A stretch of DNA of 64,000 nt from Desulfosarcina sp. BuS5 (GCF_028752835.1 NZ_CP087952.1:1283041-1347040), one strand, 5' to 3'; counted from the stretch's first letter, positions 7,932 to 36,684 are shown. Made by a program: numbers and translations. The notes: generated by a model not told the origin, from the letters alone.

Positions 7932-8924
7932 GTGGAAAAACATGAATCTCATAATAATGAAACGGAAGATAATGAACCGGAAGAATTAGATCTTAACGTA
8001 TCTGACGATACCTTGGGTGTGATTACAAATGTTCAATTATTTTCAACAAATGACGGGCCCGGGATAAGAACAACCGTGTTTCTGAAGGGCTGTCTTCTGA
8101 ACTGCAAATGGTGTCATAATCCCGAGGGGATGTCTCAATACCCTGAAATACTGCCTAAAGTTATTAATTGCACAGGCTGCGGTGAATGTGTTAAAGCCTG
8201 TCCAACAGGAGCAATTAGTTTTCCTGAAGAAAAAAAACTGCGCATTGATAAAAATTTATGCATCATGTGTGAAAGCTGTGTGGAAGCCTGCAAGTTTGAC
8301 GCTTTGAATATCTTTGGCATTTTTATCAGGGCCGGCGATCTATTGGATGTTGTTGAAGAGGACCATGTGTTTTATGAAAAATCCGGAGGCGGTCTCACTA
8401 TTTCAGGCGGCGAGCCAACAACAAGGTTTGCGTTTACCCTTGCATTATTAAAAGGTGCCAAGGGACGGGGTATAAATACCGCGCTTGATACATGCGGGTA
8501 TGTGTCATGGCAAAAACTTGATGCGCTGACCGATTGGGCCGATGTTGTTTTATATGATATAAAACATATGGATCCGGCAGTGCATAAGGATTTTACAGGT
8601 AGAGATAATGCTTTATGTCTTGAAAACGCAAAAAAGCTGTCAGCCAAAGGGATTCCCATGAGGATCAGGGTGCCCGTTATTCCCGATCGTACGGATATTC
8701 TTGAAGCTTTAGCCAAAACAGCGGAGTTTGTTGAAACGCTTGATGAGACCGGGCAGATTCTTGGTGTGGACTTGCTGCCTTATCATCCATACGCAGGAGC
8801 AAAATACAGACTTTTTGGTTATGATTATCCTTTCCCTGCTGCGAAAGAGTTTTCGGATGATGATATTTTGAGTTTTGTTGAATTGTTTACCGAGAGGGGC
8901 CTGGATGTAACTGTCGGTGGTTAG
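7932..8924 (+). CDS. glycyl-radical enzyme activating enzyme (orphan copy, AssD/BssD type)
   Basis: Radical SAM activase that generates the glycyl radical on a partner enzyme. The protein has about 330 residues; the GTG at 7932 or the TTG at 7929 both fit the AGGAGGG just upstream. Near residue 35 is the activase signature STNDGPGIRT, followed by the SAM-cluster motif CLLNCKWC and then an inserted double ferredoxin domain (CTGCGECVKACP and CIMCESCVEACKFD). The latter is typical of activases for benzylsuccinate/alkylsuccinate synthases and other non-PFL enzymes. No glycyl-radical enzyme lies next to it; the only one in the window is 18 kb away and has its own activase at 30507. It may serve a second synthase elsewhere or be a spare. 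Confidence 0.92.
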   Translation: MEKHESHNNETEDNEPEELDLNVSDDTLGVITNVQLFSTNDGPGIRTTVFLKGCLLNCKWCHNPEGMSQYPEILPKVINCTGCGECVKACPTGAISFPEEKKLRIDKNLCIMCESCVEACKFDALNIFGIFIRAGDLLDVVEEDHVFYEKSGGGLTISGGEPTTRFAFTLALLKGAKGRGINTALDTCGYVSWQKLDALTDWADVVLYDIKHMDPAVHKDFTGRDNALCLENAKKLSAKGIPMRIRVPVIPDRTDILEALAKTAEFVETLDETGQILGVDLLPYHPYAGAKYRLFGYDYPFPAAKEFSDDDILSFVELFTERGLDVTVGG

Positions 8925-9110
8925 AAACTTGTTGCAGCGCTCAGGCAACATATTATTGATTATATAGATTTGAAGGTGACCTTCCAGCATAGATGCGGAA
9001 TGCCATGAATTTTTTTGAGTCTTATGAATTAAAAATGCCAAAGCCCGGGTTAATAATCGAGCCTGGGAATATATATATTCTAAATATTTTAAATATGCCG
9101 AGTAGAGTTT

Positions 9111-11015
9111 ATGTCCTTATTTGTTTTTTTAACCCAAACCAACAGTATCGCAGCTGAATATTTTGCCGGATTAATACGGGGCGAAGGCGTTCACCGTTTT
9201 GAAATAGTTCCTAATATTGAAGCAGTAATCCAGCTTCGACCTGATTTCGTTCTGATTACAGTTTACGATCAGTTAGCAGAACATATTCTTGCCCGGGAAT
9301 GGGTCAAAGAAATTAAAGATAGGTTGCCGGCCACCAGGATTATACTCGGAGGCCCTGCTTTTAAAAGCAGACCGATATCTTTTTTCAGGAGCTTGAAGGC
9401 CGATTATGCCCTGAGAGGTGAAGCCGATTTTACCTTTAGTTTGCTAATACAAGAGATCACTAAAACAATACCGGATTCAGAACGATTAAAAAATATTCCC
9501 GGCATTATGTTTCTGAAAGACGGCCGCCTGTTTATGAACGGCGAATACCCCCTTTTAACCAGGAATCAACTCGAAGCGCTTGATTTTTCACATTATTGTG
9601 ATTACGGAAGTGATATGGTCTCTGTCTTTACGGAACGTGGGTGTCCGTACGGGTGTACTTTCTGCTCGCGGGTACTCGGCAAAAGGCTTAGGTTTCTTTC
9701 GATAGATCGGATAATAGCTATCCTTAAAGAAATCGCTGAAAATCGTGATATAACGAGGGTAATGTTTTCCAATGACAATATGATTTATAACTTAAGGAGG
9801 GCAAATAAACTATTTGGCAGAATTATTGAAGAGGGATTGAATAAACGTTTCACCTTTTTGATTAACGGCAGGATAGATAATTTCATATCAAATGATAAAA
9901 AATATGCGCCCCACAGGATTAATGTTGAACTTCTTGATCTGCTGCAAAAAGCTGGAGTGAAAAAGATATCCTTCGGCACGGAATCCTTTAATGATGCGGA
10001 TATTGTAAGGCTGAAACCGGAAGCGCGTTATACTGCTGTTGATGCAATGCGTTTGACCAGAAAGTCAGGAGAAAGGGGGATTACGGTTGTACATTTTGTC
10101 ATCTGGCCGAGTCCTGATGCGTATCCGGAAGAGGCCATAGAGTCAACCTGCCGAAGGTTCTTGGTAATGGAATCATATAAAGATTTTATCGAGATCAGCG
10201 CAGTCTTTATTAACCCTGTTAAAATAGGTCTTGTTCGTGGGTCTCCTCTGTATGATCGTGCTGTCAAAAAAGATTTTCAGATTAAAGAGTTATCTGACCC
10301 TGATGAAGGTATAATTGATATTGAGTTCGTCGAGGGTTTGGAAAATATCTCTTTGCAGAAAGCAGGCGGAGAGGTATCGATCCCATTCCCCACACCGGTG
10401 AACCGTTTTCGGACAACTGCCGATCCCTTTATGAATCTGCTGCTGCTGGAGGAAGAGCTTGAGACGTTGATGCAGAATCAAAGTCGTTCCGAACTTGAAG
10501 AAAAAAGGTTTCGCAAGCTTTCTAAAAGCATTAAGACTTACAGGAAGCAGGTTAACCGAATTAACCGGATTATCAAGAATATAAATGTGGAGACCAAAGT
10601 TCGGATAAAGGCCCTGCTCAGAGAAATCGGGGGCTTGGGGCGCTTTCTGCAGGAGTATGCCGGCCTTCCCATGCAGAAGAAAAGGGAGAGGCTGGGCATG
10701 ATTTCCGAGTTTTTTAACCAGGCCTCCCTGCAGGGCCCTGCCAATGTTTTGGAGGCGGATACGCGGCAGATTTTTTATATGCACGTAGTTGAAGCCATAA
10801 GAGAGCTGGTGGTAAATTCTAAAAAGGAAAAACAGATTATCCGTAAGTATAAAAGGTTTACCGATAATATCCTGATTAACAAGATGATGAATGCGAGAAA
10901 GAATACTCCTTTACATATTTTTATGAACTGCCTTGAAAAGGATCTTCCCCTGGACAGACCATCTGTTAAAATATTAAAAAGACATTTAAAAAAATATGAA
11001 TTGAATCCCTGGTAG
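9111..11015 (+). CDS. B12-binding-type radical SAM protein with long helical C-terminus
   Basis: The 634-residue product has an N-terminal Rossmann-like domain (residues 1-130; VLITVYDQLAEHILA, RIILGGPAFKSRP), as in cobalamin-binding radical SAM proteins, but the classical DxHxxG motif is absent, so cobalamin binding is doubtful. The radical SAM motif is ERGCPYGCTFCSRV near residue 180. From about residue 440 onward there are charged helices with coiled-coil character (LEEELETLMQ, KSIKTYRKQVNRINRI). It starts an apparent run with the 173-residue protein and the SPASM protein downstream. The reaction is unknown. Related groups methylate or methylthiolate, or cyclise, but nothing here fixes the substrate. 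Confidence 0.82.
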   Translation: MSLFVFLTQTNSIAAEYFAGLIRGEGVHRFEIVPNIEAVIQLRPDFVLITVYDQLAEHILAREWVKEIKDRLPATRIILGGPAFKSRPISFFRSLKADYALRGEADFTFSLLIQEITKTIPDSERLKNIPGIMFLKDGRLFMNGEYPLLTRNQLEALDFSHYCDYGSDMVSVFTERGCPYGCTFCSRVLGKRLRFLSIDRIIAILKEIAENRDITRVMFSNDNMIYNLRRANKLFGRIIEEGLNKRFTFLINGRIDNFISNDKKYAPHRINVELLDLLQKAGVKKISFGTESFNDADIVRLKPEARYTAVDAMRLTRKSGERGITVVHFVIWPSPDAYPEEAIESTCRRFLVMESYKDFIEISAVFINPVKIGLVRGSPLYDRAVKKDFQIKELSDPDEGIIDIEFVEGLENISLQKAGGEVSIPFPTPVNRFRTTADPFMNLLLLEEELETLMQNQSRSELEEKRFRKLSKSIKTYRKQVNRINRIIKNINVETKVRIKALLREIGGLGRFLQEYAGLPMQKKRERLGMISEFFNQASLQGPANVLEADTRQIFYMHVVEAIRELVVNSKKEKQIIRKYKRFTDNILINKMMNARKNTPLHIFMNCLEKDLPLDRPSVKILKRHLKKYELNPW

Positions 11016-11117
11016 GAAGCTTGAAGGTAAAAAAAATAAAACAATTACGAAAGCGCTAAAACAGGGCACGAAATTATTTTTATGAAAACCCATAGTATAA
11101 AATTCAGGAGTTAAAAC

Positions 11118-11639
11118 ATGATTGTCGATCAGCCTCAATCTCATTTTATTTTTGGTTATCATTCTGAAATATATAAAGGATATCAATATGTTGCTTATCA
11201 AGGCAAAGCGTTGACCAATCGGGAATATCTTGAACATTGGGGGAAATGGCTTATTTCCGGAGATAGAAACAAGCTTGATGCATTGGCAATCAGACTGGAT
11301 CCATATGTAGAATCCGGTCTGATTGCCTGCTTTAAATATGACCGTCGGCCTCTTACTAATTTAAGACTGCAGGAATGTTTTATGTGTGTTTTTTGCGATG
11401 ATCGGAATCGGGATGAGATCTGGAAAATATTAGCAATCCAGGGAGAAAGGCTCAAAGCCTGGATTCATGATCGGGAAACCGTTAATATGTGGCTGCCCGG
11501 GGGAAGATTGCTGGAGAACTGGATTCGGTCTGAGAAACTGGATGAAATTAAAGCGGAAGAGGTTCGGAATGATTCCAGGGGCAGATTTTCACAAATCCTG
11601 GATTATCCGGACAGGCCTTTTGCAGGCTGGCCGCAGTAG
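11118..11639 (+). CDS. unknown protein, paralogue A of a ~170-residue family
   Basis: I do not recognise the family. The 173-residue product starts MIVDQPQSHFIFGYHS and is closely related along its whole length to the 170-residue product at 18564. Both share GKWLISG/GKWLVLG, GLIACFKYDR and NMWLPGGRLLE. Composition is aromatic-rich and soluble, without signal peptide or membrane segment; two or three cysteines (ECFMCVFCDD) lie mid-protein, but only part of this cluster is kept in the paralogue (ECIMYVYCDK). It follows the B12-type radical SAM gene and precedes a SPASM radical SAM gene; its paralogue precedes a VWA gene. A role as adaptor or substrate of these machines is inference only. Confidence 0.8.
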   Translation: MIVDQPQSHFIFGYHSEIYKGYQYVAYQGKALTNREYLEHWGKWLISGDRNKLDALAIRLDPYVESGLIACFKYDRRPLTNLRLQECFMCVFCDDRNRDEIWKILAIQGERLKAWIHDRETVNMWLPGGRLLENWIRSEKLDEIKAEEVRNDSRGRFSQILDYPDRPFAGWPQ

Positions 11640-11726
11640 GATATTTTTATAACCTGACGTGTTTTGTAACCGGCTTGGAAAGTAAAATTTTCTTTTACGT
11701 TTGTTCAGCCGGTCAAGGCAGAAATT

Positions 11727-12857
11727 TTGGAGGAGACGCTGACAGCGATTTTATCAATGAATTTTTTAGAAATAACTAAAAAAAAATATTACGATGCGGT
11801 TAAAAATCCGGTTCCTTTAATGGTTGGTTTCAGTATAACCAATGCTTGTAACCTTAACTGCAAGTTGTGTGGTGCAGGTGCCGGAGAGCCTGTTGAAGGC
11901 GAATTGACCACCAAAGAGGCTAAAAAGGTTATTGACAACCTTGCCGGCTCGGGGATTAGTCATCTATCCTTTGGGGGCGGTGAACCCCTGGTACGGCAGG
12001 ATATTATTGAGCTGGCCGCTTATGCTGCTCGCAAGATAGATAGTGTTGGCATAGTTTCCAATGGGCTGGCCCTGAACAGCAACATGGCCCGCCGGATTGC
12101 GAGTGCTGGTGTGAAACAGGTCATGGTAAGCCTGGACGGGGTCGACATTGAGACCCATGATGCCAACCGGGGCGCCGGGAGTTATGCCCAGGTAATCGCA
12201 GCTATGAAGAATTTGCAGGATGCCCGTCTGACGGTGCGCATTTCCTTTACTATTTCCCGAACCAATTGTCATCAGCTTCCTGGAATGATCGAGATTGCAG
12301 CCAAATATGGCGTTAATCTGAATGTGCAGGAATTTTTTGCAAGAGGCCGGGCCGCAGGTCAGGACTCCCTGATCCTAACCAGGAGGGAGCGCCGGGATAT
12401 GCAGCGCCTCCTTTATAAAACCCAGGCTGAACGAGGGGCAGGCTCAATTGGTTTTGAGAACCGCTATATTATCTCCGAGGATAAAAAAGGGCAACGAATA
12501 TGTACCAATTTAAACCTGGGCACCAATTTTTATGATTTTTGTGTTGGCTGCTTTGCAGGAATATACTCATTATTTGTATCTCCCACCGGTGAAGTAAGAC
12601 TTTGCGGCGGATATGGTGACGGTTTGCTGGGGAATTTAAAGGAAACGCCTCTCTCTAAAATCTGGCAGGACTCAGAAATTCTTAAAGAGCTGCGGGACCG
12701 TGAAAAGTTGACCGGCCGGTGTGGAAAATGTTCCTACAAATATATCTGTGGAGGCTGTCGGAGAAACGCCTACCATATGCAAAAAGATGTCTTTGCGGAA
12801 GACCCCCTTTGCTGGCGCGGTCGTTCTGAAGAAAAATTGGATAATATAGATTTTTAG
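11727..12857 (+). CDS. SPASM-domain radical SAM protein (PqqE/AhbD/NirJ-like), copy 1
   Basis: Radical SAM protein with auxiliary-cluster SPASM domain; relatives modify peptides or haem precursors. The N-terminal motif is CNLNCKLC, with LSFGGGEPL shortly after. The C-terminal SPASM block comprises VRLCGGYGDG, CGKCSYKYICGGCRRNA and a final DPLC. It is about 376 residues from the TTG at 11727; the ATG at 11757 is an alternative, since neither has an ideal ribosome site. It is paralogous to the product at 34590 (same FLxITKxKY start and CGGCRR block). The last codons and the TAG stop are contributed by a TATAGAT repeat inserted at the 3' end. Substrate unknown; no obvious precursor peptide adjoins it. 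Confidence 0.88.
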   Translation: MEETLTAILSMNFLEITKKKYYDAVKNPVPLMVGFSITNACNLNCKLCGAGAGEPVEGELTTKEAKKVIDNLAGSGISHLSFGGGEPLVRQDIIELAAYAARKIDSVGIVSNGLALNSNMARRIASAGVKQVMVSLDGVDIETHDANRGAGSYAQVIAAMKNLQDARLTVRISFTISRTNCHQLPGMIEIAAKYGVNLNVQEFFARGRAAGQDSLILTRRERRDMQRLLYKTQAERGAGSIGFENRYIISEDKKGQRICTNLNLGTNFYDFCVGCFAGIYSLFVSPTGEVRLCGGYGDGLLGNLKETPLSKIWQDSEILKELRDREKLTGRCGKCSYKYICGGCRRNAYHMQKDVFAEDPLCWRGRSEEKLDNIDF

Positions 12858-12925
12858 ATAATGACATGATTTTAAAATTTGGCACAAGGCCAGAGGGGTA
12901 GAGACGCAAAATTTTGCGTCTCTAC
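12845..12925. repeat. half TATAGAT repeat fused to a GTAGAGAC palindrome
   Basis: TATAGATTTTTAGATAAT through AAATTTGGCACAAGGCC is one half of the repeat family. It is followed at 12898-12925 by a perfect 28-bp palindrome centred on AAAATTTT (GTAGAGACGC...GCGTCTCTAC). The repeat supplies the stop codon of the preceding gene. Confidence 0.85.
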
Positions 12926-12953
12926 TGTTATACTTCGGAAGGAATAGCCCGGT

Positions 12954-13829
12954 ATGATTGAAATACATTGTGCAGTCTTTTTATTCGGCCTGGCCGGTTT
13001 ATTCGGAAAGTTTCTTTCGTTGCCGCCCTTGCTGATTGTTTTGGGACGCACCGTTTTCGCCTCTATATGTTTAATTTTAATAATAGCTTGTCATAAAAAA
13101 AGTTTAACAATTAAATCCGGTAGGGATTTTAAAATTCTGGCAGCGATGGGCATTATTCTATCAATTCATTGGGTTACTTTTTTTCATTCTATCCAGGTTT
13201 CAACAGTGGCGGTAGGGTTGTTAACCTTTTCAACTTACCCTTTTTTCGTCACAATCCTGGAGCCTTATTTTTTTAAGGAAAAATTAACCTTTTTCTCTGT
13301 TTGCCTGGCGGTTTTGGTTTGTATCGGGGTAGCGTTGATCATTCCTTCTTTTAGTTTTAGTAATAATATTACCCAGGGTATTTCCTGGGGCATTTTGTCA
13401 GGATTTACATTTGCTGTATTATCGCTGTTAAACAGAAAGTATGTTCAAACCTATTCACCCTTAATAATAACATTTTTTCAGAATTCATTTGCCGCGGTTG
13501 TTCTTTTTCCATTTCTGTTTTTTGAAGAATGGGAGATCCACACCGGAGATATTTTTTTTTTGATGGTTCTGGGTATATTTTGCACGGCCCTGGCACATAC
13601 GTTGTTTATTAGTGGTTTGATGCATGTAAAAGCACAAATTGCAAGCATCGTGGCCGGACTTGAACCGGTCTATGGAATTATATTTGCGTTGATCCTGTTT
13701 GGTGAGGTTCCATCGCTTAGAACTTTGAGCGGTGGTGTTTTAATCATGGGAACGGCAGTCCTGGCAACTTTGAAACAGGTTCCAAGGGTAGGGAGTAAGA
13801 ATTATTTATGGAAACAGATATTGAAATAA
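12954..13829 (+). CDS. EamA/DMT-family transporter
   Basis: Drug/metabolite-type exporter of 291 residues with about ten hydrophobic segments (for example LFGLAGLFGKF, GIILSIHWVTFFHSI, TFAVLSLLNRKY, ILIMGTAVLATL) in two repeated EamA halves. The motif LEPVYGIIFALILFGE in the second half is characteristic. Located in the inner membrane; the substrate of such carriers cannot be read from sequence. It overlaps the next radical SAM gene by 22 bp, suggesting co-expression and a possible role in exporting a product or side product of the radical SAM enzymes. Confidence 0.9.
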   Translation: MIEIHCAVFLFGLAGLFGKFLSLPPLLIVLGRTVFASICLILIIACHKKSLTIKSGRDFKILAAMGIILSIHWVTFFHSIQVSTVAVGLLTFSTYPFFVTILEPYFFKEKLTFFSVCLAVLVCIGVALIIPSFSFSNNITQGISWGILSGFTFAVLSLLNRKYVQTYSPLIITFFQNSFAAVVLFPFLFFEEWEIHTGDIFFLMVLGIFCTALAHTLFISGLMHVKAQIASIVAGLEPVYGIIFALILFGEVPSLRTLSGGVLIMGTAVLATLKQVPRVGSKNYLWKQILK

Positions 13830-15058
13830 ATTCAAAATATCCGATATTGAGCCGGTTAGAGTTCAGTGCGGGAATTCGTAAAAAAAAAGAGGGATTGAAA
13901 AATCTTTTCGAGATTGACAACCATGAACTATCCGTCTGGGCAAAACCTCCCAGCGGCAAGATAGTGTCGAAGGGATGCCAGGCATGCCGGGCTGGAAGAT
14001 ATTTATGTTTCTATGTCGGAAAAAAATGTAATGTGGACTGCATATATTGCGCTCAAGGTACAAAACAGGAGAAGTGGAATCAGCCGGAAGACCCTGACCT
14101 AATAAATGACAAATATCATCTTACGGAAATTATGGAAATGTTTAATAATCCGGATGCAATATGGGCAGGTCCCAATGTCCGGTGCATCGCTTATTCGGGC
14201 GGGGAGCCTTTTATATATCTGGATAAAGTTTTAAGTTTATCATATTTCGTATCCAGATATTACAGCCATATCTATCAGATGATAATTACAAACGGTTTGC
14301 TTGTTACCGAAGATAAACTAAAGGCGCTGTACGACAATGGAGTAAAAGAAATAAAATTTCATATCGGAGCAACAAATTTCAGCAAAAAGGTTCTTGATAA
14401 TCTGGAAATGGCCAGTGGAATTATGGATTACGTAAACATAGAGACACCGGCAACTCCTGAGCTAAAGGAGTTTTTGATTGACAAGAAGAGAATACACTGG
14501 CTGGAGAATGTCGGTGTATACCAGATAGGCATGGGTGAACTTGGCTCCACTTCTATTTTACATTTAAATAAGATAAATGAGATTGGAGACAAGCGGGTCA
14601 TAGAATATTTTCAGAAACTTGGCCAACTTTATGTTTGTGAATCCGTTATTGGGAAATCGACAACCGCTAAAGATATGTCGGAAGTTTATATATCTCCAAT
14701 AGTTTCTAAAGAGATTATGTATGATATAATGAAATATGCAGTGGAGAATAAGGTAGATGTTGTGATAAATGATTGTTCCCAGGATGCCAAGCATTTTCAA
14801 AGGTTTCAGAGAAATGTTATTGAACTCACGACAAGCATGGCGAAAAGTGCTGCTTTTCAGCCTCCTGAATATATTCAAGGAGAATTGGCAAAAATCGAAT
14901 CACAAAAGATGAAAATGCTGGAACAATACAACGGACCTCAGGCACAGGACTGGCTGAAACCGTTAATCCGGCGGACCACCCGCAAAGACGAAAATGGCTG
15001 GCATATTAAACTGGAAGAATTGGCAAAATCAATTATTGATTATCTGGAGAAAGCTTAA
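13808..15058 (+). CDS. unfamiliar radical SAM protein, tandem copy A
   Basis: The 416-residue product carries a radical SAM motif KKCNVDCIYCAQGTKQE near residue 75, preceded by GCQACRAG and a further cysteine (RYLCF), and followed by AYSGGEPFIYLDKV and IITNGLLVTEDKL. Near the C-terminus NDCSQDAKHFQR adds another conserved cysteine. The extra cysteines before the SAM motif hint at a second cluster. It lacks SPASM, TRAM and B12 domains. It is strongly similar throughout to the next gene (GCQACxAG, YCAQGTKQE, SGGEPFIYLDKV, NDCSQDAKH), separated by only 3 bp. I cannot assign a function; a heterodimer made by duplication is plausible. Start ATG lies inside the end of the EamA gene. Confidence 0.85.
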   Translation: METDIEINSKYPILSRLEFSAGIRKKKEGLKNLFEIDNHELSVWAKPPSGKIVSKGCQACRAGRYLCFYVGKKCNVDCIYCAQGTKQEKWNQPEDPDLINDKYHLTEIMEMFNNPDAIWAGPNVRCIAYSGGEPFIYLDKVLSLSYFVSRYYSHIYQMIITNGLLVTEDKLKALYDNGVKEIKFHIGATNFSKKVLDNLEMASGIMDYVNIETPATPELKEFLIDKKRIHWLENVGVYQIGMGELGSTSILHLNKINEIGDKRVIEYFQKLGQLYVCESVIGKSTTAKDMSEVYISPIVSKEIMYDIMKYAVENKVDVVINDCSQDAKHFQRFQRNVIELTTSMAKSAAFQPPEYIQGELAKIESQKMKMLEQYNGPQAQDWLKPLIRRTTRKDENGWHIKLEELAKSIIDYLEKA

Positions 15059-15061
15059 CTG

Positions 15062-16318
15062 ATGATTTCTTTAAAAGACATAAATATAAATAGTCCATAT
15101 CCTATATTAAGCCGGATGGAGTTTCTTGAAAAAATTTACAAAAGACGGGAAGAGCTGAAAGATTCACTTGAAATTTCTGATGATGAATTATCCGTGTGGA
15201 CTAAAACTCCAAGCTCCAAGACTCTGTCAAAGGGCTGTCAGGCCTGTAAAGCCGGGAAATGGCTGTGCCTGTATATGGGCAAGAAATGTAATATAGATTG
15301 TGTCTATTGCGCCCAGGGCACAAAGCAGGAGAAAATGATGGATCCGGAGCGTCCGGATCTCATAAATGATACATATCATATTGAAGACGCTAAAAATATG
15401 TTCAATGATCCAGAGGCAATTTGGTCAGCTAAAAATACAGGTGGCATTGGCTATTCCGGGGGCGAACCATTCATATATCTGGACAAGGTTTTCAACCTGG
15501 CTCATTTTATTTCTACATATCATAATCACATTTATCAGTGGATATATACGAATGGTCTGCTTGTTACTGAGGATAAGCTGAAAATGCTTTATGATGTCGG
15601 TATAAGAGAAATAAGATTCCATATAGGAGGAAGTAATTTTAATCCCAAAGTCCTGGATAATCTCAAAATTGCGACAGGAATAATGGATTATGTAAATGTA
15701 GAGACCCCTGGATGCCGGAAGCTCAAGGAGTTTTTGATTGATAAAGAGTGGATCTACCGCCTGGAAGAGATGGGTGTGTATCAAATGAATTTTGGAGAAA
15801 TGAGCACGGTGGGAGTAAACGAAATGCAAAAATTTCTCCAGGGACATAAAAGAGTCATTGAATATTTTCAGAGAAATCAAGTCTATGTTTATGATTCTTT
15901 CCTGGGCAGATCTGTTCTGGACCGGAACTTGTCCCAGTTTTATATATCCCCGATGATATCCAGGGAAAGCACGTATGATATCATGAAATATGTTATTGAT
16001 AATAAAATAGATATATTGATCAATGATTGTTCCCAGGATGCTAAACATGTTCAAAGGACCCAGAGAAACCTGAGTGAGCAAAATATAAAAATAGCAAGTG
16101 AAAATATTGATAAAGGCGATGAGTACATCACCAAACTTCAAAAAGATAATAATGAATTAAAACAAAAAATGGTAGAGGAGCATAAAAAACCTGATATGCG
16201 GGGATATGACATGAAGTCAATAATCAAAAGTGTCACAAGGCAGGTTGATAATAAGTATCAACTTAACCTGGAGGAACTGCAAAAAGAGATTGGGAAATCA
16301 GCCCAAATTGAGTGGTAA
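15062..16318 (+). CDS. unfamiliar radical SAM protein, tandem copy B
   Basis: The 418-residue sister of the preceding product has the same architecture: GCQACKAGKWLCL, then KKCNIDCVYCAQG, YSGGEPFIYLDKV, YTNGLLVTEDKLKML and LINDCSQDAKHVQR. The C-terminal 70 residues (SENIDKGDEYITKLQKDN onward) are more charged and helical than in copy A. Both copies keep all three SAM-cluster cysteines, so both should bind a cluster. The copies have diverged in the substrate-facing region (for example GELGSTS against GEMSTVG). The gene ends 75 bp before the convergent FKBP gene. Confidence 0.85.
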   Translation: MISLKDININSPYPILSRMEFLEKIYKRREELKDSLEISDDELSVWTKTPSSKTLSKGCQACKAGKWLCLYMGKKCNIDCVYCAQGTKQEKMMDPERPDLINDTYHIEDAKNMFNDPEAIWSAKNTGGIGYSGGEPFIYLDKVFNLAHFISTYHNHIYQWIYTNGLLVTEDKLKMLYDVGIREIRFHIGGSNFNPKVLDNLKIATGIMDYVNVETPGCRKLKEFLIDKEWIYRLEEMGVYQMNFGEMSTVGVNEMQKFLQGHKRVIEYFQRNQVYVYDSFLGRSVLDRNLSQFYISPMISRESTYDIMKYVIDNKIDILINDCSQDAKHVQRTQRNLSEQNIKIASENIDKGDEYITKLQKDNNELKQKMVEEHKKPDMRGYDMKSIIKSVTRQVDNKYQLNLEELQKEIGKSAQIEW

Positions 16319-16336
16319 TAATTACGAATTTAAAAT

Positions 16337-16360
16337 AGGGGCACGATGCATCGTGCCCCT
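16337..16360. repeat. perfect 24-bp palindrome between convergent genes
   Basis: AGGGGCACGATG and its exact complement, centred on ATGCAT, lie between the radical SAM pair and the FKBP gene. It probably folds as a bidirectional hairpin and may serve as terminator, though no long T run follows. Confidence 0.75.
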
Positions 16361-16392
16361 GCGGGCCAACATTGGTGCTCATTTCGATGAGC

Positions 16393-16833: not shown

Positions 16834-16877
16834 TTGTAACTCCTTTTATTAATTTTATTTCAAGCGGAATTTTAACT

Positions 16878-17043
16878 TATAGATTTTTGGATAATTACCT
16901 GAGGGAGGCGTACTGTTATAGATTTTTAGATAATTATCCTATTTTAAAATTTGGCACAAGGCCGGGTGGCGTAAGGGTTCAAAATCTTGAACCCTTACGC
17001 CGACGACCGATAACGCAGTGAAATTATTTATTTGAACATCTAT
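16878..17043. repeat. TATAGAT repeat family, copy 3 (reverse) with a truncated neighbour
   Basis: The full copy spans 16917-17043: TATAGATTTTTAGATAATT, TTTGGCACAAGGCC, an internal GGGTTCAAAATCTTGAACCC palindrome, then GATAACGCAGTGAAATTATTTAT. A 35-bp truncated end precedes it at 16878. Confidence 0.85.
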
Positions 17044-17928: not shown

Positions 17929-17964
17929 AGTATCTCATATAAAAAATTAAAAGGAGGTTTTCTT

Positions 17965-29134: not shown

Positions 29135-29527
29135 ATGGCTGTTATTCCGGATAATGTACTTGATATCCTGGCTGAGCCAGAGTCGGTTAAAATGTTGGGG
29201 ACTGTAAATGATCTGGGAGAGCCGAATGTGGTAATTATATCAACCCTATCTGTTTTAACTCCTGAAAAAATAGCATTTGCGGATGTCTGTCTTGGAAAAA
29301 CAAAAGCAAATCTTAAACAAAATGGAAAACTTACCATAGGGGTTATTGGATATGAAAAAAAGGCGTATCAGATTAAATGTAAATTTGTTCATTTTGATAA
29401 CAAAACCTCAATATTTGAGTCCTGGTATGACGCGGTTTATGAAAGAATGATGATGCATCAGCTTAGATCCGTGGCTATCGCCAACGTAATCGAGGTGTCT
29501 GAAGCCGGCCTGGATCTGCCCGGATAA
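29135..29527 (+). CDS. FMN-binding split-barrel protein (PNPOx-like), copy 1
   Basis: 130 residues of the pyridoxamine-phosphate-oxidase-like split-barrel type: ILAEPESVKMLGTVNDLGEPNV at the start, then KANLKQNGKLTIGVIG and KCKFVHFDNKTSIF. Such proteins bind FMN or F420, often as dimers, and reduce or sense small molecules. It follows the catalytic subunit by about 150 bp, after the hairpin, and has a divergent sister at 29789. A function in protecting or supplying electrons to the oxygen-sensitive synthase is inference. Confidence 0.78.
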   Translation: MAVIPDNVLDILAEPESVKMLGTVNDLGEPNVVIISTLSVLTPEKIAFADVCLGKTKANLKQNGKLTIGVIGYEKKAYQIKCKFVHFDNKTSIFESWYDAVYERMMMHQLRSVAIANVIEVSEAGLDLPG

Positions 29528-29788: not shown

Positions 29789-30202
29789 GTGTATCTGAAA
29801 ATTCCTGAAGAAATTATGGAAATACTGGAAAAACCTGAAACATATAAAATGGTTGGGTCTCTTGATGGTTCGGATAGCGTACCGGAAAGTATAAATTTGG
29901 ATTCGGTTAATACTGTTAAAATAGTTGATAAAGATACTATAGCTTTTCCATTTTCTAATGAAAAACGTAAGTTTATCTTGGATAATTTTAAAAAATTTTC
30001 ACGTTTGTCTTTAGCGGTTTTTGAACCTGCTATGGTCGGTTTTCAATTAAAAGGAAGGCTTGCAAGTGTTGCGCGTAACGGTGATTTGCTAGATTCTTTT
30101 AAAGAGCTTTGTGATGAGCCAAAGCCTTTTGCCGTTATCCTGATGAAGGTGACCGAAATTTATGCTCTTACCATGGGTATTGCAGGCGAAAAAATTCTTT
30201 AG
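29789..30202 (+). CDS. FMN-binding split-barrel protein, copy 2
   Basis: 137 residues from GTG, with GGGAGGG upstream. It is paralogous to the product at 29135: IMEILEKPETYKMVGSLDG against VLDILAEPESVKMLGTVND, and FILDNFKKFSRLSLAVFEP in place of the KANLKQNGKL segment. Flavin-contact positions are less obvious than in copy 1, so it may have lost the cofactor. It lies between the first split-barrel gene and the activase; a heterodimer of the two is possible. Confidence 0.72.
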   Translation: MYLKIPEEIMEILEKPETYKMVGSLDGSDSVPESINLDSVNTVKIVDKDTIAFPFSNEKRKFILDNFKKFSRLSLAVFEPAMVGFQLKGRLASVARNGDLLDSFKELCDEPKPFAVILMKVTEIYALTMGIAGEKIL

Positions 30203-30506: not shown

Positions 30507-31451
30507 TTGATGACTGAAAAATGTTTAATTACAAATATGCAACGCTTTTCGACAAATGATGGGCCCGGTATTAGAACCCTTGTAATCGGTGTTGGCTGCA
30601 ATCTTAAATGCAAATGGTGTCATAATCCGGAAACAATCCCGATGCATAATACTATTTTCTGGAAGTCAGCATTATGTGTTCAGTGCGGCCTTTGTCTTGA
30701 ATCATGCCCGGAAGAGGCTATCAGGCCCCCCATTCCTGTCGAGGAAGCTATAGCAGAAGGAAGCACTTACCATAAAATTGATCGGAGTAAATGCACTGAC
30801 TGTATGAAGTGTGTTGAAGCGTGTGATTTTGATGCTCTTGTGCCGGTTGCAAAAATGCTGACGGTTGATGATGTTTTGGATGAGGTAATGCGGGATGAAC
30901 TTTTTTACAAGAATTCAGGTGGTGGTATGACCCTTGGTGGCGGGGAACCTACCGTGCATCCCAAATTTATGCTGGAGCTCCTCCAAAAGGCCAGGGAAAA
31001 GGGCATTCATATCTGTCTCGATACAAATGGCACAGCTCCATGGAAGGTTTATGAACAAACCCTTCCTTTTGTTGATTTTTATTTGGTTGATATGAAAAAC
31101 ATGGATACCGAACTGCACAAGTTGGGAACAGGTGCTGGAAATGAAAAAATTCTTGAAAACATAAAGAAACTTTCAGAAGCTGGTGCAAAGATTATTATTC
31201 GGGTTCCGGTAATGTATGATTATAATGATACTGCTGAAAATTTTGAACAGATGGGTGAATTTTTAAAAGGACTCCCCAATCCTGTCCACAGGTTAGACCT
31301 TTTGCCGTTTCACAACTGGTGCCAGAATAAATACAATTGGATGGGTATTTACTGGCCGCTTATAGAAGAAGAAAATATGGACCCTATTGAATGTGAAGAT
31401 TTTAAAGAGATACTTGAAACATATGGGATTAATTGTACAATCGGCGGTTAA
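30507..31451 (+). CDS. assD: glycyl-radical enzyme activating enzyme of the synthase operon (AssD/MasG type)
   Basis: 314-residue radical SAM activase. Signature STNDGPGIRTL, SAM-cluster motif CNLKCKWC, then an inserted double ferredoxin domain (CVQCGLCLESCP and CTDCMKCVEACDFD), a MTLGGGEPT SAM-binding motif and the C-terminal LDLLPFHNW block. AGGAG lies 8 bases upstream of the ATG. Distance to the catalytic gene is 1.5 kb with the split-barrel genes between. It is clearly related to, but distinct from, the orphan activase at 7932. The shared operon makes this the likely partner of the 830-residue synthase. Confidence 0.93.
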   Translation: MMTEKCLITNMQRFSTNDGPGIRTLVIGVGCNLKCKWCHNPETIPMHNTIFWKSALCVQCGLCLESCPEEAIRPPIPVEEAIAEGSTYHKIDRSKCTDCMKCVEACDFDALVPVAKMLTVDDVLDEVMRDELFYKNSGGGMTLGGGEPTVHPKFMLELLQKAREKGIHICLDTNGTAPWKVYEQTLPFVDFYLVDMKNMDTELHKLGTGAGNEKILENIKKLSEAGAKIIIRVPVMYDYNDTAENFEQMGEFLKGLPNPVHRLDLLPFHNWCQNKYNWMGIYWPLIEEENMDPIECEDFKEILETYGINCTIGG

Positions 31452-31663: not shown

Positions 31664-32515
31664 ATGGATAAAAAAGATTCATTACAAGATGTTCTTATTC
31701 CTGAAAATGATCCACACTATTTTTTATCAAGGGAGATAGCATCCACTCTGGATAGATTTAACAATATGTCCGCCAGTACTCCTGTTAATTTGCTTGTAGT
31801 AGGTAAACAGGGCTGTGGTAAATCTTCTTTGGTGAGTCAATTTGCTGCAAGGCATCAAAGGCCGCTGGCAACTTTTCAGGTTGGTATTCTTTCAGAACCG
31901 GGACAGTTATTTGGAGAATTAAGGTTAAAAGACGGTGAAACCTACTACCAGCAATTTTTATTTCCCCAGGCTATTTCGACTCCAAACTGTGTGATTCACC
32001 TGGAAGAAATAAACAGACCTGAACATCCCAAGGCGCTTAATATGCTTTTTTCAATTTTAAGTGATGATCGGCAGGCTTGGCTGGATGATTTGGGTAATGT
32101 AAAGGTTGCAGATGGAGTTGTATTTTTTGCAACCTTGAATGAAGGCGAGGAATTTTCCGGTACTGAGATGCTTGATGCGGCCTTAAGAGACAGGTTTTAT
32201 GTTATTTCAATGGATTATTTACCCCTTGATGTTGAAAAAGAGGTTTTAATCCGTAAAACAGGACTAAATGAGGTAGAAGCCCAAAGGGTTGTGTCAATCT
32301 TGAATGATTTAAGATATAATACTAAAATGCCCATGGCGGTTTCAACCAGGCATAGCCTGATGATCGGCAATTTGGTAAAAGCCGGCGCCAGTATTAGGGA
32401 AGCTTTAATTTTTAGCCTCCAAATGAGCAAAGAAGCTCTTGAAGCTATTCTGCTAACGGTTCAGATGGAGTTAGGAGAGAAAGAGGTACCTAAAGATGCC
32501 TATGAATTATATTGA
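31664..32515 (+). CDS. MoxR-type AAA+ ATPase (NorQ/CbbQ/BssE-like), copy 1
   Basis: 283 residues: Walker A GKQGCGKSS, Walker B CVIHLEEINR, sensor-1 FFATLNEGEEF, arginine finger ALRDRFY. Length and motifs match the MoxR ATPases that pair with VWA proteins to activate or rescue metalloenzymes; BssE in toluene operons is of this type. It overlaps the VWA gene by 20 bp, a classic NorQ-NorD arrangement. It probably acts on the synthase complex, by analogy. Confidence 0.92.
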   Translation: MDKKDSLQDVLIPENDPHYFLSREIASTLDRFNNMSASTPVNLLVVGKQGCGKSSLVSQFAARHQRPLATFQVGILSEPGQLFGELRLKDGETYYQQFLFPQAISTPNCVIHLEEINRPEHPKALNMLFSILSDDRQAWLDDLGNVKVADGVVFFATLNEGEEFSGTEMLDAALRDRFYVISMDYLPLDVEKEVLIRKTGLNEVEAQRVVSILNDLRYNTKMPMAVSTRHSLMIGNLVKAGASIREALIFSLQMSKEALEAILLTVQMELGEKEVPKDAYELY

Positions 32516-34205
32516 TCGACTGGACATCTATTGCATGAATCAACCAAGCAATATTTGGTCTAAGCCAAGTTGGTATTTTAAAGGGGATTCCGATTATTGG
32601 CGGATACTCAAGTCGGGTTATGAAGCAGCCGAGCTCGCTGCTGTTTTAAGGGCCTTAACCCTGTTTGTCGGTCATATCGGGATAAATGTGGGACGTGTTG
32701 TTTGGGCTGGACAAATAGCCTCAGGCCTGGATGAAGGATCCATTGTATTGCCGGCTGCATTTGTATTAGATGTATATCCGGTCCCCCCCGGCAAAATGGA
32801 TGTTCTGATAGGTGTTACAGCTCATGAAGCGCGTCGCCAAACCGAATGGAGCCATAATGCCTGGCTGGAACTGCTGAAAATTAATGAGGAACTTGCCAGG
32901 CCTTCAAAATATTTAATCAAGGATATATACTGGAAGTTTTTTTCAGCCTGTGAAAATATATATCTGGAACAAAAAGCTTCAAGCAGTATACTGGGTGAGT
33001 ATACCAGGAAGGCTCGGAAAGTTATTATTTCCGGACTAATGCGGGATCCGAGGCGTAATCCAACAGCCTGGCACCTTTTTGACTTATGGGAACAGTTGGC
33101 AGTTGACGGCCGCTATTATGAGCCTTTAAATCCTCTTTATGAAAAACCATTAGATGTTTTACGTAAAAGGACACCTGAAATCTGTTCAGTTGCAACTAAT
33201 GGAAGTCCTTCTGTTATTGCCAGAAGTAAAAAAAGAGCTGCTCTTTATTCCAGCATAATCAAGGATATTTTACCACTTATAAAAGAATGGCAGAAAGATC
33301 CGGTTTCATACTTTGAAAAAGGTTTATACGAGGAAAAAGAGCTTAAAAAGAAAAAAAGAAAAAAAGAAAAAAAGAGAAAAACGGCTATCAGCCGTGAAGT
33401 ATTTAATCAGATTGAGGTTGAGCTGGCCAGTGGAGGACGGGATCTGACTCCTTTGATAAGGAAAATATGTAATAATGATGAGAAGGTAATCAGAACAACT
33501 TTGTCAAATTTTACTATTCCGGCAAATGCCGCTATAGATCGACTTTTGGTGAAACGTTTGAAAAATGTTTTTTATTATTATGCCCAAAGAGTGAAAACAA
33601 CAAGCCGGGGCCTTGAAAGCGGCAAGATTGACCGAAGACGTTTGTACCGCGCCCCTATTTCCGGAAGATGCTTCAAAGTTGATCAGATGATGGTGGAATT
33701 TGCCTGGAATTTTACTGTAGTGGTCGATGCATCCTTATCAATGGGTGGTTATAAATGGAATGTCGTTGAAAATTCAATGAGCGCACTCCATAAGGCTTTG
33801 GCCGGGTATCAAAATACTTTACGAATATTTGGATACTTTGAATGGGATGGTGTTTCAATTTTATCTGAACTATTACGAAACAATGTGCTTTATTCAATAG
33901 CGCCGACAGGACGGACTCCTTCCGGTCAGGCTATAATTGGCGCGGGCTTGCTTATGCCGAGAAATACATTTTCAAGGAAATTTATTCTTCATATTACTGA
34001 TGGAGAGTCAAATGCAGGTGTGGATGTTCAGTATGCCCTTGATTATTGTAAGCAAGATAATATTGATATAATAACACTTGGTTGTGGTAAAAAAAGTAAA
34101 GAGGCCATGCTTGAACAGTATGGAAAATCCTTGCAGTTTATTGAAACAATTGATCAATTACCTGCCGCACTTGAGCGCCTTTTTCAGCGGCTGCTTAAGT
34201 TTTAG
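32496..34205 (+). CDS. NorD/CbbO-like VWA-domain protein, copy 2
   Basis: 569 residues. VWA domain at the C-terminus with MIDAS residues in VVVDASLSMGGY, PTGRTPSGQAI and HITDGESNAG. The N-terminal part is shared with the product at 19179. The linker here is strongly basic (KKKKRKKEKKRKT around residue 285) whereas the linker of copy 1 is strongly acidic. The start ATG lies within the end of the MoxR gene, indicating translational coupling and complex formation. The opposite linker charges are worth noting (see findings). Confidence 0.9.
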   Translation: MPMNYIDRLDIYCMNQPSNIWSKPSWYFKGDSDYWRILKSGYEAAELAAVLRALTLFVGHIGINVGRVVWAGQIASGLDEGSIVLPAAFVLDVYPVPPGKMDVLIGVTAHEARRQTEWSHNAWLELLKINEELARPSKYLIKDIYWKFFSACENIYLEQKASSSILGEYTRKARKVIISGLMRDPRRNPTAWHLFDLWEQLAVDGRYYEPLNPLYEKPLDVLRKRTPEICSVATNGSPSVIARSKKRAALYSSIIKDILPLIKEWQKDPVSYFEKGLYEEKELKKKKRKKEKKRKTAISREVFNQIEVELASGGRDLTPLIRKICNNDEKVIRTTLSNFTIPANAAIDRLLVKRLKNVFYYYAQRVKTTSRGLESGKIDRRRLYRAPISGRCFKVDQMMVEFAWNFTVVVDASLSMGGYKWNVVENSMSALHKALAGYQNTLRIFGYFEWDGVSILSELLRNNVLYSIAPTGRTPSGQAIIGAGLLMPRNTFSRKFILHITDGESNAGVDVQYALDYCKQDNIDIITLGCGKKSKEAMLEQYGKSLQFIETIDQLPAALERLFQRLLKF

Positions 34206-34589: not shown

Positions 34590-35741
34590 ATGAAATTTAA
34601 AAGATCGGGCAAGATTTCGAATGAAGAATTTTTGACAATTACTAAATTAAAGTATCAGCGCGCCATAAAAAATGCAACCCCCCTGTTTGCCTGGTTCAGT
34701 CTTACTGAGGATTGTAATCTGCACTGTCGTTATTGTTTCGCCGATGCTCATTTTTGTATAAAAAGAACACAACCTAAAGATGAGTTAGAAACCGATCAGG
34801 TCTTTACTATTCTGGATAATGTTGCCAGAGCAGGAACTGTAGCTATTCAATTCGCTGGTGGTGAACCTTCGTTGCGGCGCGATTTGGTTGAAATTGTTGA
34901 GCATGCGGTAAATAACAATATTTTTGTGGCCCTTAATACCAATGGCACTCTTATCAAGGCTGATACTGTTCGCAGGCTGGCGAAGGCTGGTTTGTCCCAG
35001 GTAAAAGTGAGTGTCGACGGGTTTAAAAAAAATCATGACTGGAATAGAGGAAAAGGAAATTTTGATAAAGCAATCAATGCCTTAAAACTGTTCAGGGATA
35101 ATGGAATACCTAGTGTTTATTTGATAATGACACTCTCAAATGTCAATTATGATGACCTTGAACCGTTAATTGAATTAACAGCCGAGCTTGGTATCAGATT
35201 TATAATGGTTGAGTTTTTGCCGGTTGGTCATTCTGAAGGTTTAATTAAATGGGGGTTGAACAAAGAGCAGCGCCGCAAGGCACAAAGACTTTTGTTAAAA
35301 TATCAGAAAGAAAGAGGAATGGACGATATCCAGTTTGAAAATCGTTACATAGTTAGTGAACAGGAAAATACAAAGATACTTCTTGCTGATCCTCACTCGG
35401 ATTGCGATTTTTATAATTTTGGGGTTGGCTGTATTACTGGTATCTATAGTTATATGATCACAGCTCAAGGACGGGTCGCTACCGGCTGTCTTATACAGGA
35501 AGAGGTCGGCAATTCGAATCTGCTGGAAAGAAATTTAAGGGATATCTGGAATGAGGGGGATTTATTTAAAAAACTTCGAAATCGGGAAAAATTAAAAGGA
35601 AAATGCGGTCAATGTGTTTATCGGTATGTTTGTGGAGGATGTCGACGTTCAGCATTTATTCAGACCGGCGATTTTATGGGCCCTGATCCAAATTGCTGGG
35701 TTGAAGAGTCTACCTTGTCATCTTGCTGTTCCGGGAATTAA
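34590..35741 (+). CDS. SPASM-domain radical SAM protein, copy 2
   Basis: 383 residues. SAM-cluster motif CNLHCRYC, IQFAGGEPSLRRD, and SPASM block CLIQEE, CGQCVYRYVCGGCRRSA and DPNC. It is paralogous to the product at 11727, but with sequence drift throughout. RBS AAGGAAGG lies upstream of the ATG. It sits between the MoxR/VWA pair and the second MoxR gene, so a task in maturing the synthase or a peptide associated with it is possible. AhbD/NirJ haem-synthesis enzymes share the SPASM signature, yet no haem genes adjoin. Confidence 0.88.
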   Translation: MKFKRSGKISNEEFLTITKLKYQRAIKNATPLFAWFSLTEDCNLHCRYCFADAHFCIKRTQPKDELETDQVFTILDNVARAGTVAIQFAGGEPSLRRDLVEIVEHAVNNNIFVALNTNGTLIKADTVRRLAKAGLSQVKVSVDGFKKNHDWNRGKGNFDKAINALKLFRDNGIPSVYLIMTLSNVNYDDLEPLIELTAELGIRFIMVEFLPVGHSEGLIKWGLNKEQRRKAQRLLLKYQKERGMDDIQFENRYIVSEQENTKILLADPHSDCDFYNFGVGCITGIYSYMITAQGRVATGCLIQEEVGNSNLLERNLRDIWNEGDLFKKLRNREKLKGKCGQCVYRYVCGGCRRSAFIQTGDFMGPDPNCWVEESTLSSCCSGN

Positions 35742-35844
35742 TTGTGTCTTTGAATCTTTTTAATTATTAAGGCCTGTTTCAAAAATAAAATGTTAAAATA
35801 TGAAGTTGTTTTTGGCAGGCTCCTAAACTTGTGAGGTAATATTG

Positions 35845-36684
35845 ATGATACCTGAATTACATATCCCTGAGTTGGATAATTTTTTCTACCTGCCTGAGGA
35901 AATTATTAATGTTTTGGATAGTCTTGAGAAACTGACGAAAAAACATTCGGTAAATATTCTGGTTGTTGGCCGCCAGGGTTGCGGAAAATCATCATTGATA
36001 AGTCAGTTTGCAGCTTATTATAAACGCCCTATTGCTGTTTTCCAAATTGGCCAGCTTTCAGAGCCTGGCCAGCTTTTTGGTGAACATGCTTTAAAAGGCG
36101 GGGATACCTATTATCAGGAATTCCTATTTCCAAGAGCTATCTCTACTCCAAATTGTGTTGTACACCTTGAAGAGATTAATCGACCGGAACATCCTAAAGC
36201 ACTTAATGAACTTTTTTCAGTCCTTTCCGAAGATCGGTCAATCTGGTCGGATCAGCTTGGTCTTATAAAAGTAGCTAAGGGTGTAGTTTTTTTTGCCAGT
36301 ATGAATGAAGGAGAAGAGTTTACCGGTACTGATTCTTTAGATGTCGCGCTAAGAGATAGATTTTATATCTTGCCGGTTGATTATCCTTCAGTTGATATTG
36401 AAAAAAAAATACTTACCAACAAGACCGGGATCGATGAGACTCAAGCCGAGATGATTTTAAAAATAATCGGAAATTTACGAAGTGATCCAAATATTGATGA
36501 AACTATTTCTGTCCGGCACAGTTTAATGATTGCAGAACTTATGGTTGCAGGCGGCTCCTTAAGGGAATCCTTGATATATAGTCTTTCTGTATCAAGGGAT
36601 TTAATTGAGAGCCTGCTCCTTGCGGTTCATGTGGAAACCAAGGAAACAATAATTAAATCATCGGAATATAAGTTGTTTCTTTAG
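35845..36684 (+). CDS. MoxR-type AAA+ ATPase, copy 2
   Basis: 279 residues from the ATG at 35845. Walker A GRQGCGKSS, Walker B CVVHLEEINR, sensor FFASMNEGEEF and arginine finger ALRDRFY; very close to the product at 31664 over its whole length. It stands without a VWA gene next to it, while the VWA gene at 19179 stands without a MoxR gene. The two may form a second pair separated by rearrangement. Confidence 0.92.
   Translation: MIPELHIPELDNFFYLPEEIINVLDSLEKLTKKHSVNILVVGRQGCGKSSLISQFAAYYKRPIAVFQIGQLSEPGQLFGEHALKGGDTYYQEFLFPRAISTPNCVVHLEEINRPEHPKALNELFSVLSEDRSIWSDQLGLIKVAKGVVFFASMNEGEEFTGTDSLDVALRDRFYILPVDYPSVDIEKKILTNKTGIDETQAEMILKIIGNLRSDPNIDETISVRHSLMIAELMVAGGSLRESLIYSLSVSRDLIESLLLAVHVETKETIIKSSEYKLFL

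Follow-up and report, generated by a model that had tools for sequence, protein, structure and literature searches.

A (1-methylalkyl)succinate synthase locus with five further radical SAM proteins and a candidate selenoprotein in Desulfosarcina sp. BuS5

The synthase gene and its relatives

The 64,000-nucleotide stretch of DNA analyzed here comes from Desulfosarcina sp. BuS5 (GCF_028752835.1, NZ_CP087952.1:1283041-1347040), a marine bacterium that oxidizes propane and n-butane, and is referred to as the window; positions are counted from its first letter, and genes lie on the plus strand unless stated otherwise. Between positions 7929 and 36684 it carries an island built around the alpha subunit of a (1-methylalkyl)succinate synthase (MASS), together with two activases, five further radical S-adenosylmethionine (radical SAM) proteins, and a short gene, SEL, which probably encodes a selenoprotein.

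The product of masD (26489-28981) matches PF02901 with 329 bits and PF01228 with 101 bits. Its best match in the PDB is MasD (9o8u_A) with 738 bits, compared with 398 bits for benzylsuccinate synthase. It is the alpha subunit of an X-succinate synthase, in line with an earlier reading, made from the sequence alone (hereafter the sequence-only reading), of the locus as that of a fumarate-adding synthase. No other gene of the BuS5 genome matches PF02901 (PFL-like); both the glycyl radical motif (RVAGYSA) and the catalytic-loop cysteine (QACIVP) are present and align with those of other alpha subunits. A single putative masD has been described in BuS5, whose product groups with sequences from Firmicutes in cluster III (PMC4402382, PMC4703814; the Firmicutes named there with a cluster III MasD are Peptococcaceae SCADC and Propane60GuB), and alkane-plus-fumarate products have been reported from BuS5 cultures (PMC4402382). 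We are highly confident that this is the (1-methylalkyl)succinate synthase (mas) locus of BuS5, accompanied by a co-inherited module, and BuS5 probably uses the cluster to attack propane and butane without oxygen.

Relatives were sought in an order-level sample of 389 genomes (labelled with G numbers, G000 being the window's own genome; fetched loci carry L numbers). At a threshold of E 1e-100, a synthase match is present in 44 genomes and missing in 345. A MasD at least 69% identical to that of the window occurs in four genomes, i.e. G000, G306 (same genus), G313 (another genus) and G294 (another family), which span three genera and two families. Together with 26 genomes whose enzyme is 42-52% identical, these make up the 30 genomes that we call alkyl-type; the 14 genomes with matches of only about 33-36% identity are termed more distant and are putatively aryl-type. 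Searches for SPASM proteins, the small protein SP173 and tRNA-Sec covered 45 genomes, namely the 44 with a synthase and G258, which belongs to the same genus as the window.

The phylogeny of the alpha subunits, for which the program warns of long branches meeting, places five MasD sequences from the four genomes in a clade with 100/100 support, on a long stem and sister to 29 alkyl-type sequences. Members of this clade carry the catalytic loop ACIVPxPETK; most other alkyl-type sequences aligned have ACMSPCPTTK or a close variant.

Short genes for small subunits precede masD. The products of 25594-25863 and 25865-26116 are two copies of a MasE-like (MASS delta), rubredoxin-like subunit (9o8u_D, E 5e-5 and E 2e-8), and that of 26287-26475 resembles MasC/BssC (MASS gamma), with a weak match to 9o8u_C (E 0.009) and 22.1 bits on BssC_TutF (cut-off 25). 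The small cysteine-containing protein encoded at 25321-25578, which is also kept upstream of MasD in G306 and G294, is possibly MasB (MASS beta); MasB is its sole PDB match, and a weak one (E 0.88).

The radical SAM proteins

All seven radical SAM proteins that the sequence-only reading had placed around the glycyl radical enzyme, two activases and five others, were found with intact motifs: each exceeds the PF04055 cut-off of 29.5 bits (36.7 to 118.8 bits) and has one CxxxCxxC. The activases are AE1 (7929-8924; TIGR02494 304 bits, cut-off 174), of a second lineage, and AE2 (30507-31451; 321 bits), of the main lineage. In a tree of 49 activases they fall into two separate, well supported lineages, and AE1 groups with AE1 of G313 and G294 and with that of seven other alkyl-type genomes. 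The idea that two activases distinguish this locus had to be abandoned: the arrangement is common, as adjacent activases of the two lineages also occur in seven further genomes of the alkyl type (G139, G138, G010, G235, G023, G016 and G001).

The five remaining proteins had been assigned to B12, SPASM and tandem types, and the support for these types is uneven. B12rSAM (9111-11015; PF04055 55.9 bits) is likely a B12-type protein judging from its sequence, with 28.2 bits on the B12-binding domain PF02310, below the cut-off of 32.1, and with rSAM_ladder_B12 as best NCBIfam model (82 bits, cut-off 360); its homologues are 61% identical in G313 and 57% in G294. For SPASM1 (11727-12857) the assignment is clear (PF04055 91 bits; PF13186 37.6 bits, cut-off 21.5). 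It is softer for the 38% identical paralogue SPASM2 (34590-35741; PF04055 118.8 bits), which has no SPASM Pfam hit at E 1e-3, yet most of the SPASM cysteines align with those of SPASM1. On the NCBIfam model of AhbD (cut-off 500) SPASM1 reaches 235 bits and SPASM2 182 bits, so that neither attains the AhbD threshold. The tandem paralogues rSAMa (13808-15058; PF04055 40.3 bits) and rSAMb (15062-16318; 36.7 bits) are 55% identical.

The sequence-only reading proposed to check whether homologues of these five proteins accompany AssA-like genes more often than chance; such an association is supported for the B12-type protein and for strong SPASM matches. B12rSAM matches occur in six of the 389 genomes, i.e. 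in 4/4 of the MasD clade, in 0/40 of the other synthase-bearing genomes and in 2/345 without a synthase match; within the clade the gene is full length in three genomes and a fragment at a contig edge in G306. Fisher's test for 4/4 against 2/385 gives p 1.6e-8 (like our other co-occurrence tests, it ignores the relatedness of genomes). Strong SPASM matches, of at least 539 bits, are limited to the same four among 45 genomes, the best score elsewhere being 205 bits, while some SPASM match at E 1e-50 is found in 38 of the 45. Neither B12rSAM nor a strong SPASM match was found in any of the 26 other alkyl-type genomes. The other synthase loci fetched, of 3 to 40 kb each and without the synthase contigs of G159, G054, G090, G131, G193 and G305, contain none of the five extra radical SAM types, apart from one B12rSAM match of 18 bits (L062).

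The two B12rSAM genomes without a synthase match, G311 and G276, are drafts from different families; their loci (L188, L189) share 5,127 identical bases that end in a B12rSAM fragment, so at least one of the bins is contaminated.

The tandem pair follows another pattern. Full-length homologues of rSAMa and rSAMb were found only in the window's own genome and in G306 (L022). In a class-level scan of 291 genomes, 58 others gave matches, all of them partial and covering about 170-220 of 416 residues at 29-40% identity, and L022, apparently contig C298 of G306, was the sole locus recovered in a global scan, whose patterns avoided the cysteine motif and possibly missed distant relatives.

Gene order supports the common inheritance of the remaining set. 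The order sm111-AE1-SEL-B12rSAM-SP173-VWA1-SPASM is kept on contig C62 of G313 and on contig C135 of G294; the window has these genes distributed across 7929-20894, interspersed with a transporter gene of the EamA family and the tandem pair.

A candidate selenoprotein

SEL (17965-18312) lies between the small genes sm111 and SP170. Its frame is open apart from one conserved in-frame TGA at 18031-18033, and its homologues keep both frame and protein similarity on either side of this codon. Among 28 distinct sequences the position is occupied by TGA in 24 and by TGC in four (two in G001, one each in G016 and G282), and a cysteine stands four residues before it in 26. When UGA is read as a stop, an ORF finder shifts the start to 18049 and the rubredoxin-like half of the protein is lost.

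Behind the UGA follows a 7-bp hairpin resembling a selenocysteine insertion sequence (18049-18066), with 7/7 pairs in all four window-clade sequences. The 20 UGA sequences outside this clade have a different stem, which is 96% paired, compared with a mean of 60% and a maximum of 74% in 2000 synonymous-codon shuffles, which do not control for relatedness or codon bias. One of the four window-clade sequences shows a two-sided change (G-C to A-U) in its fully paired stem, and the 60 nucleotides of the window starting at the UGA fold mildly better than shuffled ones (z = -1.96). A tRNA-Sec of 75.6 bits (cut-off 47) is encoded in the BuS5 genome, and 38 of the 45 genomes exceed this cut-off. From this comparison SEL is a probable selenoprotein, with the UGA probably read as selenocysteine.

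SEL exceeds the cut-off of no Pfam family. Its AlphaFold model (mean pLDDT 89.5) consists of a small beta domain, containing two cysteine pairs and the selenocysteine position, followed by three helices; both cysteine pairs are invariant in 17 aligned sequences. Foldseek returns the delta subunit of MASS (9o8u) at rank 4 with probability 0.99 and 30% identity over 43 columns, at an E value of 0.17, and a sequence search of the PDB finds the same subunit weakly (E 0.58). MASS delta is a rubredoxin-like protein with a single bound Fe; its position overlaps that of the activase, and its tail touches the glycyl radical domain (PMC12358834). An assignment of the C-terminal helices of SEL to the MIT-like AAA docking domains is no more than an idea; they reach Z of about 8-9 with several MIT domains, an uninformative level for helical bundles.

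The distribution of SEL is wider than that of the B12 and SPASM proteins. It was found in 27 of the 389 genomes: 25 of the 30 alkyl-type genomes, none of the 14 more distant ones, and two of the 345 in which no synthase matched (25/30 compared with 2/359 by Fisher's test, p 3e-32). The latter two are G234 and G282, whose contigs end beside the gene. In a phylum-level sample SEL is present in 14 of 297 genomes; for the 12 that are new, the best match has one TGA in ten and none in two. Outside the window clade, 22 of 24 SEL genes stand directly 5' of moxR and share its strand; of the other two, that of G234 is at the end of a contig and that of G191 has no moxR in the 16.6 kb that were fetched. 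The clade itself shows two other placements: G313 and G294 have SEL between AE1 and B12rSAM, and in the window as well as in G306 it precedes SP170.

As regards known selenoproteins, the deep-Sep study (PMC12013277) reports a 'hypothetical protein DW' from BuS5, but SEL is not that protein. The corresponding model, NF041197, was absent from the hits of SEL members scanned singly and from the 25 families, out of 27, shown for the SEL alignment; moreover, the DW-bearing D. widdelii PP31, taken as G360, has no SEL match in the order scan. SEL may be among the 'known' BuS5 selenoproteins that the deep-Sep study counts and, in the portion used here, does not itemize. A 2026 inventory of 119 selenoprotein families (PMC13188914) includes DG and dual-CXXC/DW; the entries covered here include none that names the SEL family or is linked to a hydrocarbon synthase. 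Within the sections drawn on, PMC1924859, PMC13188914, PMC5029168, PMC9312934 and PMC8318568 describe no selenoprotein in loci of this kind.

Other genes of the island

Chaperone-type genes flank the synthase genes on both sides. VWA1 (19179-20894; PF00092 27.6 bits, cut-off 23.8) and VWA2 (32496-34205; 31.3 bits) are von Willebrand A proteins with a presumed BssF-like role, MoxR1 (31664-32515; PF07728 65.7 bits) is an AAA+ ATPase with a presumed BssE-like role, and MoxR2 (35842-36684; 68.5 bits) is a further AAA+ ATPase. For the benzylsuccinate synthase operon, BssE is described as an AAA+ and BssF as a VWA protein (PMC7285207); BssE is termed essential, and growth on toluene was lost when bssF was disrupted, though effects on genes further downstream may have played a part (PMC5874301).

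SP173 (11118-11639) has no Pfam or NCBIfam hit. Its predicted model (pLDDT 91.8) gives weak fold matches only, i.e. BLES03 (1ztp, E 1e-3) and eIF4E- and PII/CutA-like folds. That SP173 might be specific to the new set was rejected, since it matches in 20 of the 45 genomes, with alkyl-type and more distant enzymes alike. SP170 (18564-19076) is a 64% identical paralogue. The small conserved protein sm111 (17420-17755), also without a Pfam or NCBIfam hit, has homologues next to AE1 in both G313 and G294, and a homologue next to MasD occurs in G294 as well. L022 and L102 contain at 6653-6913 a chimeric copy in which the start of sm111 is joined to the C-terminal half of SEL, without the selenocysteine domain.

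The EamA-family transporter (12954-13829; PF00892 131.9 bits) was seen elsewhere only in L022 and L102 among the fetched loci, no wider search having been made, and is apparently a genus-level insertion. On the minus strand follow a sigma-54 response regulator (21147-22544; PF00158 224 bits, PF00072 83 bits) and a sensor histidine kinase with PAS domains (22713-24683; PF02518, PF00512).

A palindromic repeat (GTAGGGGTTCAA...) occurs at 16971-16998, 17860-17887, 18368-18395, 22636-22663, 46475-46502 and 51700-51727. Three of the copies surround the small genes at 17-18.4 kb, and there the repeat forms part of longer inverted repeats (77-90 nt). It has the look of a short element, either mobile or regulatory.

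Between masD and AE2, two small proteins (29135-29527 and 29789-30202) with sub-threshold PNPOx_N matches are conserved in G306. After the island, the stretch 37072-46388 encodes an MmgE/PrpD protein, MeaB, a TRAP transporter, two enoyl-CoA hydratases and a carboxyl transferase, a gene set that fits carbon-skeleton rearrangement and decarboxylation of alkylsuccinates. Many other alkyl-type loci likewise have a PrpD-type gene close to the activase. Distant glycyl radical enzymes, accompanied by one or two activases and an SP173-like protein, are found in L129 and L130 (both G294) and L131 (G313) and are possibly further X-succinate synthases. In front of the island, CobT adjoins a ThiC-family protein (1968-4411) that in addition reaches 497 bits with the BzaB exception model (cut-off 700), and a 643-residue protein on the minus strand (4648-6579) matches neither Pfam nor NCBIfam at E 1e-5.

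Proposed role of the module

The explanation that we consider best, and hold with about as much belief as doubt, is a mas locus that in this MasD lineage has an enlarged module for maturation and radical handling. For the B12-type and SPASM enzymes, a post-translational change of the synthase complex would be the most likely task, a change of small accessory proteins comes second, and a diffusible product third. We rank them in this way because of the position of the genes among an activase, chaperone-type proteins and SEL, and because of their restriction to cluster III MasD; whether the module serves maturation is, in our estimate, evenly balanced.

Under this proposal, the products of the mas locus would add propane and n-butane to fumarate, with AE1 or AE2 making the glycyl radical on MasD and MoxR/VWA machines opening or remodelling the synthase complex. 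SEL might dock with its rubredoxin-like part close to the glycyl radical domain, in the manner of MASS delta, and bridge that domain to the MoxR/VWA machine; its selenocysteine, usually with the cysteine four residues before it, could keep the site reduced or quench a stray radical. This part of the proposal we infer from the likeness of SEL to MASS delta, the position of MASS delta, and the roles of BssE and BssF. The B12-type and SPASM enzymes would introduce lineage-specific post-translational changes that fit the synthase complex for gaseous alkanes, and the tandem pair would be a later, genus-level addition.

A bolder version draws on a parallel with another alkane-activating enzyme: methyl- and ethyl-coenzyme M (CoM) reductase are modified by B12-type radical SAM enzymes. 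By this analogy, gaseous-alkane activation by cluster III MasD might depend on radical SAM enzymes rewriting residues of the synthase complex. In this version, a selenocysteine-containing rubredoxin-like protein might also, with MoxR/VWA, control loading, quenching or repair of the glycyl/thiyl radical across alkyl-type synthases, which would amount to a selenium-dependent glycyl radical system. We put this forward tentatively and doubt it considerably more than we believe it.

Instead of MasD itself, the B12-type and SPASM proteins could modify a small accessory protein (SEL, sm111 or a MasE-like protein), for instance by a thioether, a selenoether or a methyl group. In G313 and G294, SEL and sm111 are indeed encoded right beside AE1 and B12rSAM; SPASM1 scores 164 bits on the mycofactocin maturase and SPASM2 156 bits on WgkB, which are peptide maturase models, and conserved C and U residues are present in SEL. 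However, SEL with the same cysteine pairs and UGA also occurs in alkyl-type genomes that have neither B12rSAM nor strong SPASM proteins, where it thus does not need them, and sm111 is conserved along its length without the look of a leader and core by eye; we regard this explanation as unlikely. Still less probable, to our minds, is that the enzymes make a diffusible compound (a modified tetrapyrrole, a cofactor or a signal) for the pathway or the sensor kinase and leave the synthase untouched. The heme and heme d1 enzymes AhbD and NirJ2 are the best NCBIfam matches of both SPASM proteins, and a transporter, a sensor kinase and a sigma-54 regulator lie in the island; yet the AhbD scores are far below the equivalog cut-off, the transporter was not seen in the modules of G313 and G294, and the neighbours there are chaperone-type proteins and an activase.

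The radical SAM genes might also play no part in alkane activation and simply travel with a mobile island, in line with the repeat element at six sites of the window, with the proposed lateral transfer of cluster III MasD (PMC4703814), and with the lack of any match to MasD, B12rSAM, SPASM, SP173 or SEL in the same-genus genome G258 (83% complete). Against this, the same gene order recurs in two other genera whose MasD is 69-72% and whose B12rSAM is 57-61% identical, which indicates that the set was kept together over a long divergence, and we consider mere passengers decidedly improbable. As for SEL itself, the TGA could be a true stop that leaves two short proteins or a pseudogene: selenocysteine insertion is deduced from comparison, and several drafts with the UGA have no tRNA-Sec over the cut-off. 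But a TGA at one and the same position in most sequences, with TGC in all others and similarity kept on both sides, a hairpin paired far above synonymous shuffles, and a tRNA-Sec in the window's genome make this very hard to believe.

Several observations weigh against the maturation module as outlined above. Both SPASM proteins score best against tetrapyrrole enzymes. For the tandem pair, no full-length homologue was found beyond the genus. BuS5 has a third SPASM homologue, 72% identical to SPASM1 and away from the island (C1:3394337-3395434 of G000; L132:9337-10443), whose neighbours are a cytochrome bd subunit, a sigma factor and an IS1-type transposase, with no synthase nearby; in G294, SPASM2, one of two strong copies, sits among NadA, LolA and channel genes. 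Because the B12/SPASM set is confined to three genera, with two of the four genomes from one genus and three being fragmented drafts, the association rests on few independent events, and a search of the family of G294 for more genomes with the B12 module covered a single genome, G294 itself. Regarding SEL, five of the 30 alkyl-type genomes are unmatched (G235, G010, G160, G172 and G060), of which G160, G172 and G060 have assA and moxR on one contig, and the Foldseek E value of the match to MASS delta is 0.17. Two of the 28 SEL sequences lack the cysteine four residues before the selenocysteine position. The cysteine forms keep 6, 5, 4 and 7 of 7 pairs (79%, against a shuffle mean of 53%), so the stem is not simply lost in them. 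Finally, seven of the 45 genomes, all drafts, have no tRNA-Sec over the cut-off, and six of these have a UGA-type SEL (G306, G313, G139, G080, G312 and G365).

Whereas the synthase was already known, SEL is a candidate for a new selenoprotein family; a prior description of the lineage-bound B12/SPASM set or of the selenocysteine protein of alkyl-type genomes was not found in the literature searched, a scope that did not extend to the BuS5 genome paper. SEL, mostly directly before moxR in alkyl-type genomes, offers a testable handle on the activation and protection of the synthase, and the lineage-bound radical SAM set would be a lead on what separates a propane/butane synthase from medium-chain ones. 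Furthermore, supplying a missing helper could aid heterologous expression of the synthase.

Comparison with known systems

The published accounts of BuS5 MasD concern the same organism and its single masD, and the passages of PMC4402382 and PMC4703814 relevant here contain no discussion of the surrounding accessory genes. The closest described cluster, mas of Azoarcus sp. HxN1 (PDB 9o8u; PMC12358834), shares with the window MasD, MasC- and MasE-like small subunits and an activase. As described in the part of PMC12358834 cited here, masA-masG comprise one activase and no moxR/VWA, selenoprotein or further radical SAM genes; moreover, MasD of the window belongs to a cluster separate from that of HxN1, with its own catalytic loop. 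The bss operon, bssDCABEF(GIJKL), likewise has an activase, an alpha subunit, small subunits, an AAA+ protein (BssE) and a VWA protein (BssF), and its descriptions in PMC5874301 and PMC7285207, to the extent used here, list no B12, SPASM or tandem radical SAM protein and no selenoprotein. The sequence-only reading that described operons contain no such gene set agrees with these three sources as far as they were covered.

Among other radical SAM enzymes, the AhbD / NirJ2 radical SAM-SPASM family is the nearest named relative of SPASM1 and SPASM2, at less than half of the equivalog cut-off. The modification of alkyl-CoM reductases by radical SAM enzymes is an analogy only, as it concerns a different enzyme and a different chemistry.

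For SEL, the zinc ribbon-containing (seleno)protein DG (NF049953; deep-Sep, PMC12013277) is the closest meaningful NCBIfam model and, like SEL, a predicted selenocysteine protein of Desulfobacterota. Two of 17 SEL members hit this model, which is 172 long, at E up to 1; both align from the UGA residue onward, with a best score of 20.2 bits, below the threshold of 130, and a distant kinship is possible. The likeness to MASS delta (MasE) concerns the rubredoxin-like domain with two cysteine pairs, to which SEL adds a selenocysteine, usually as C-x3-U, and a C-terminal three-helix domain.

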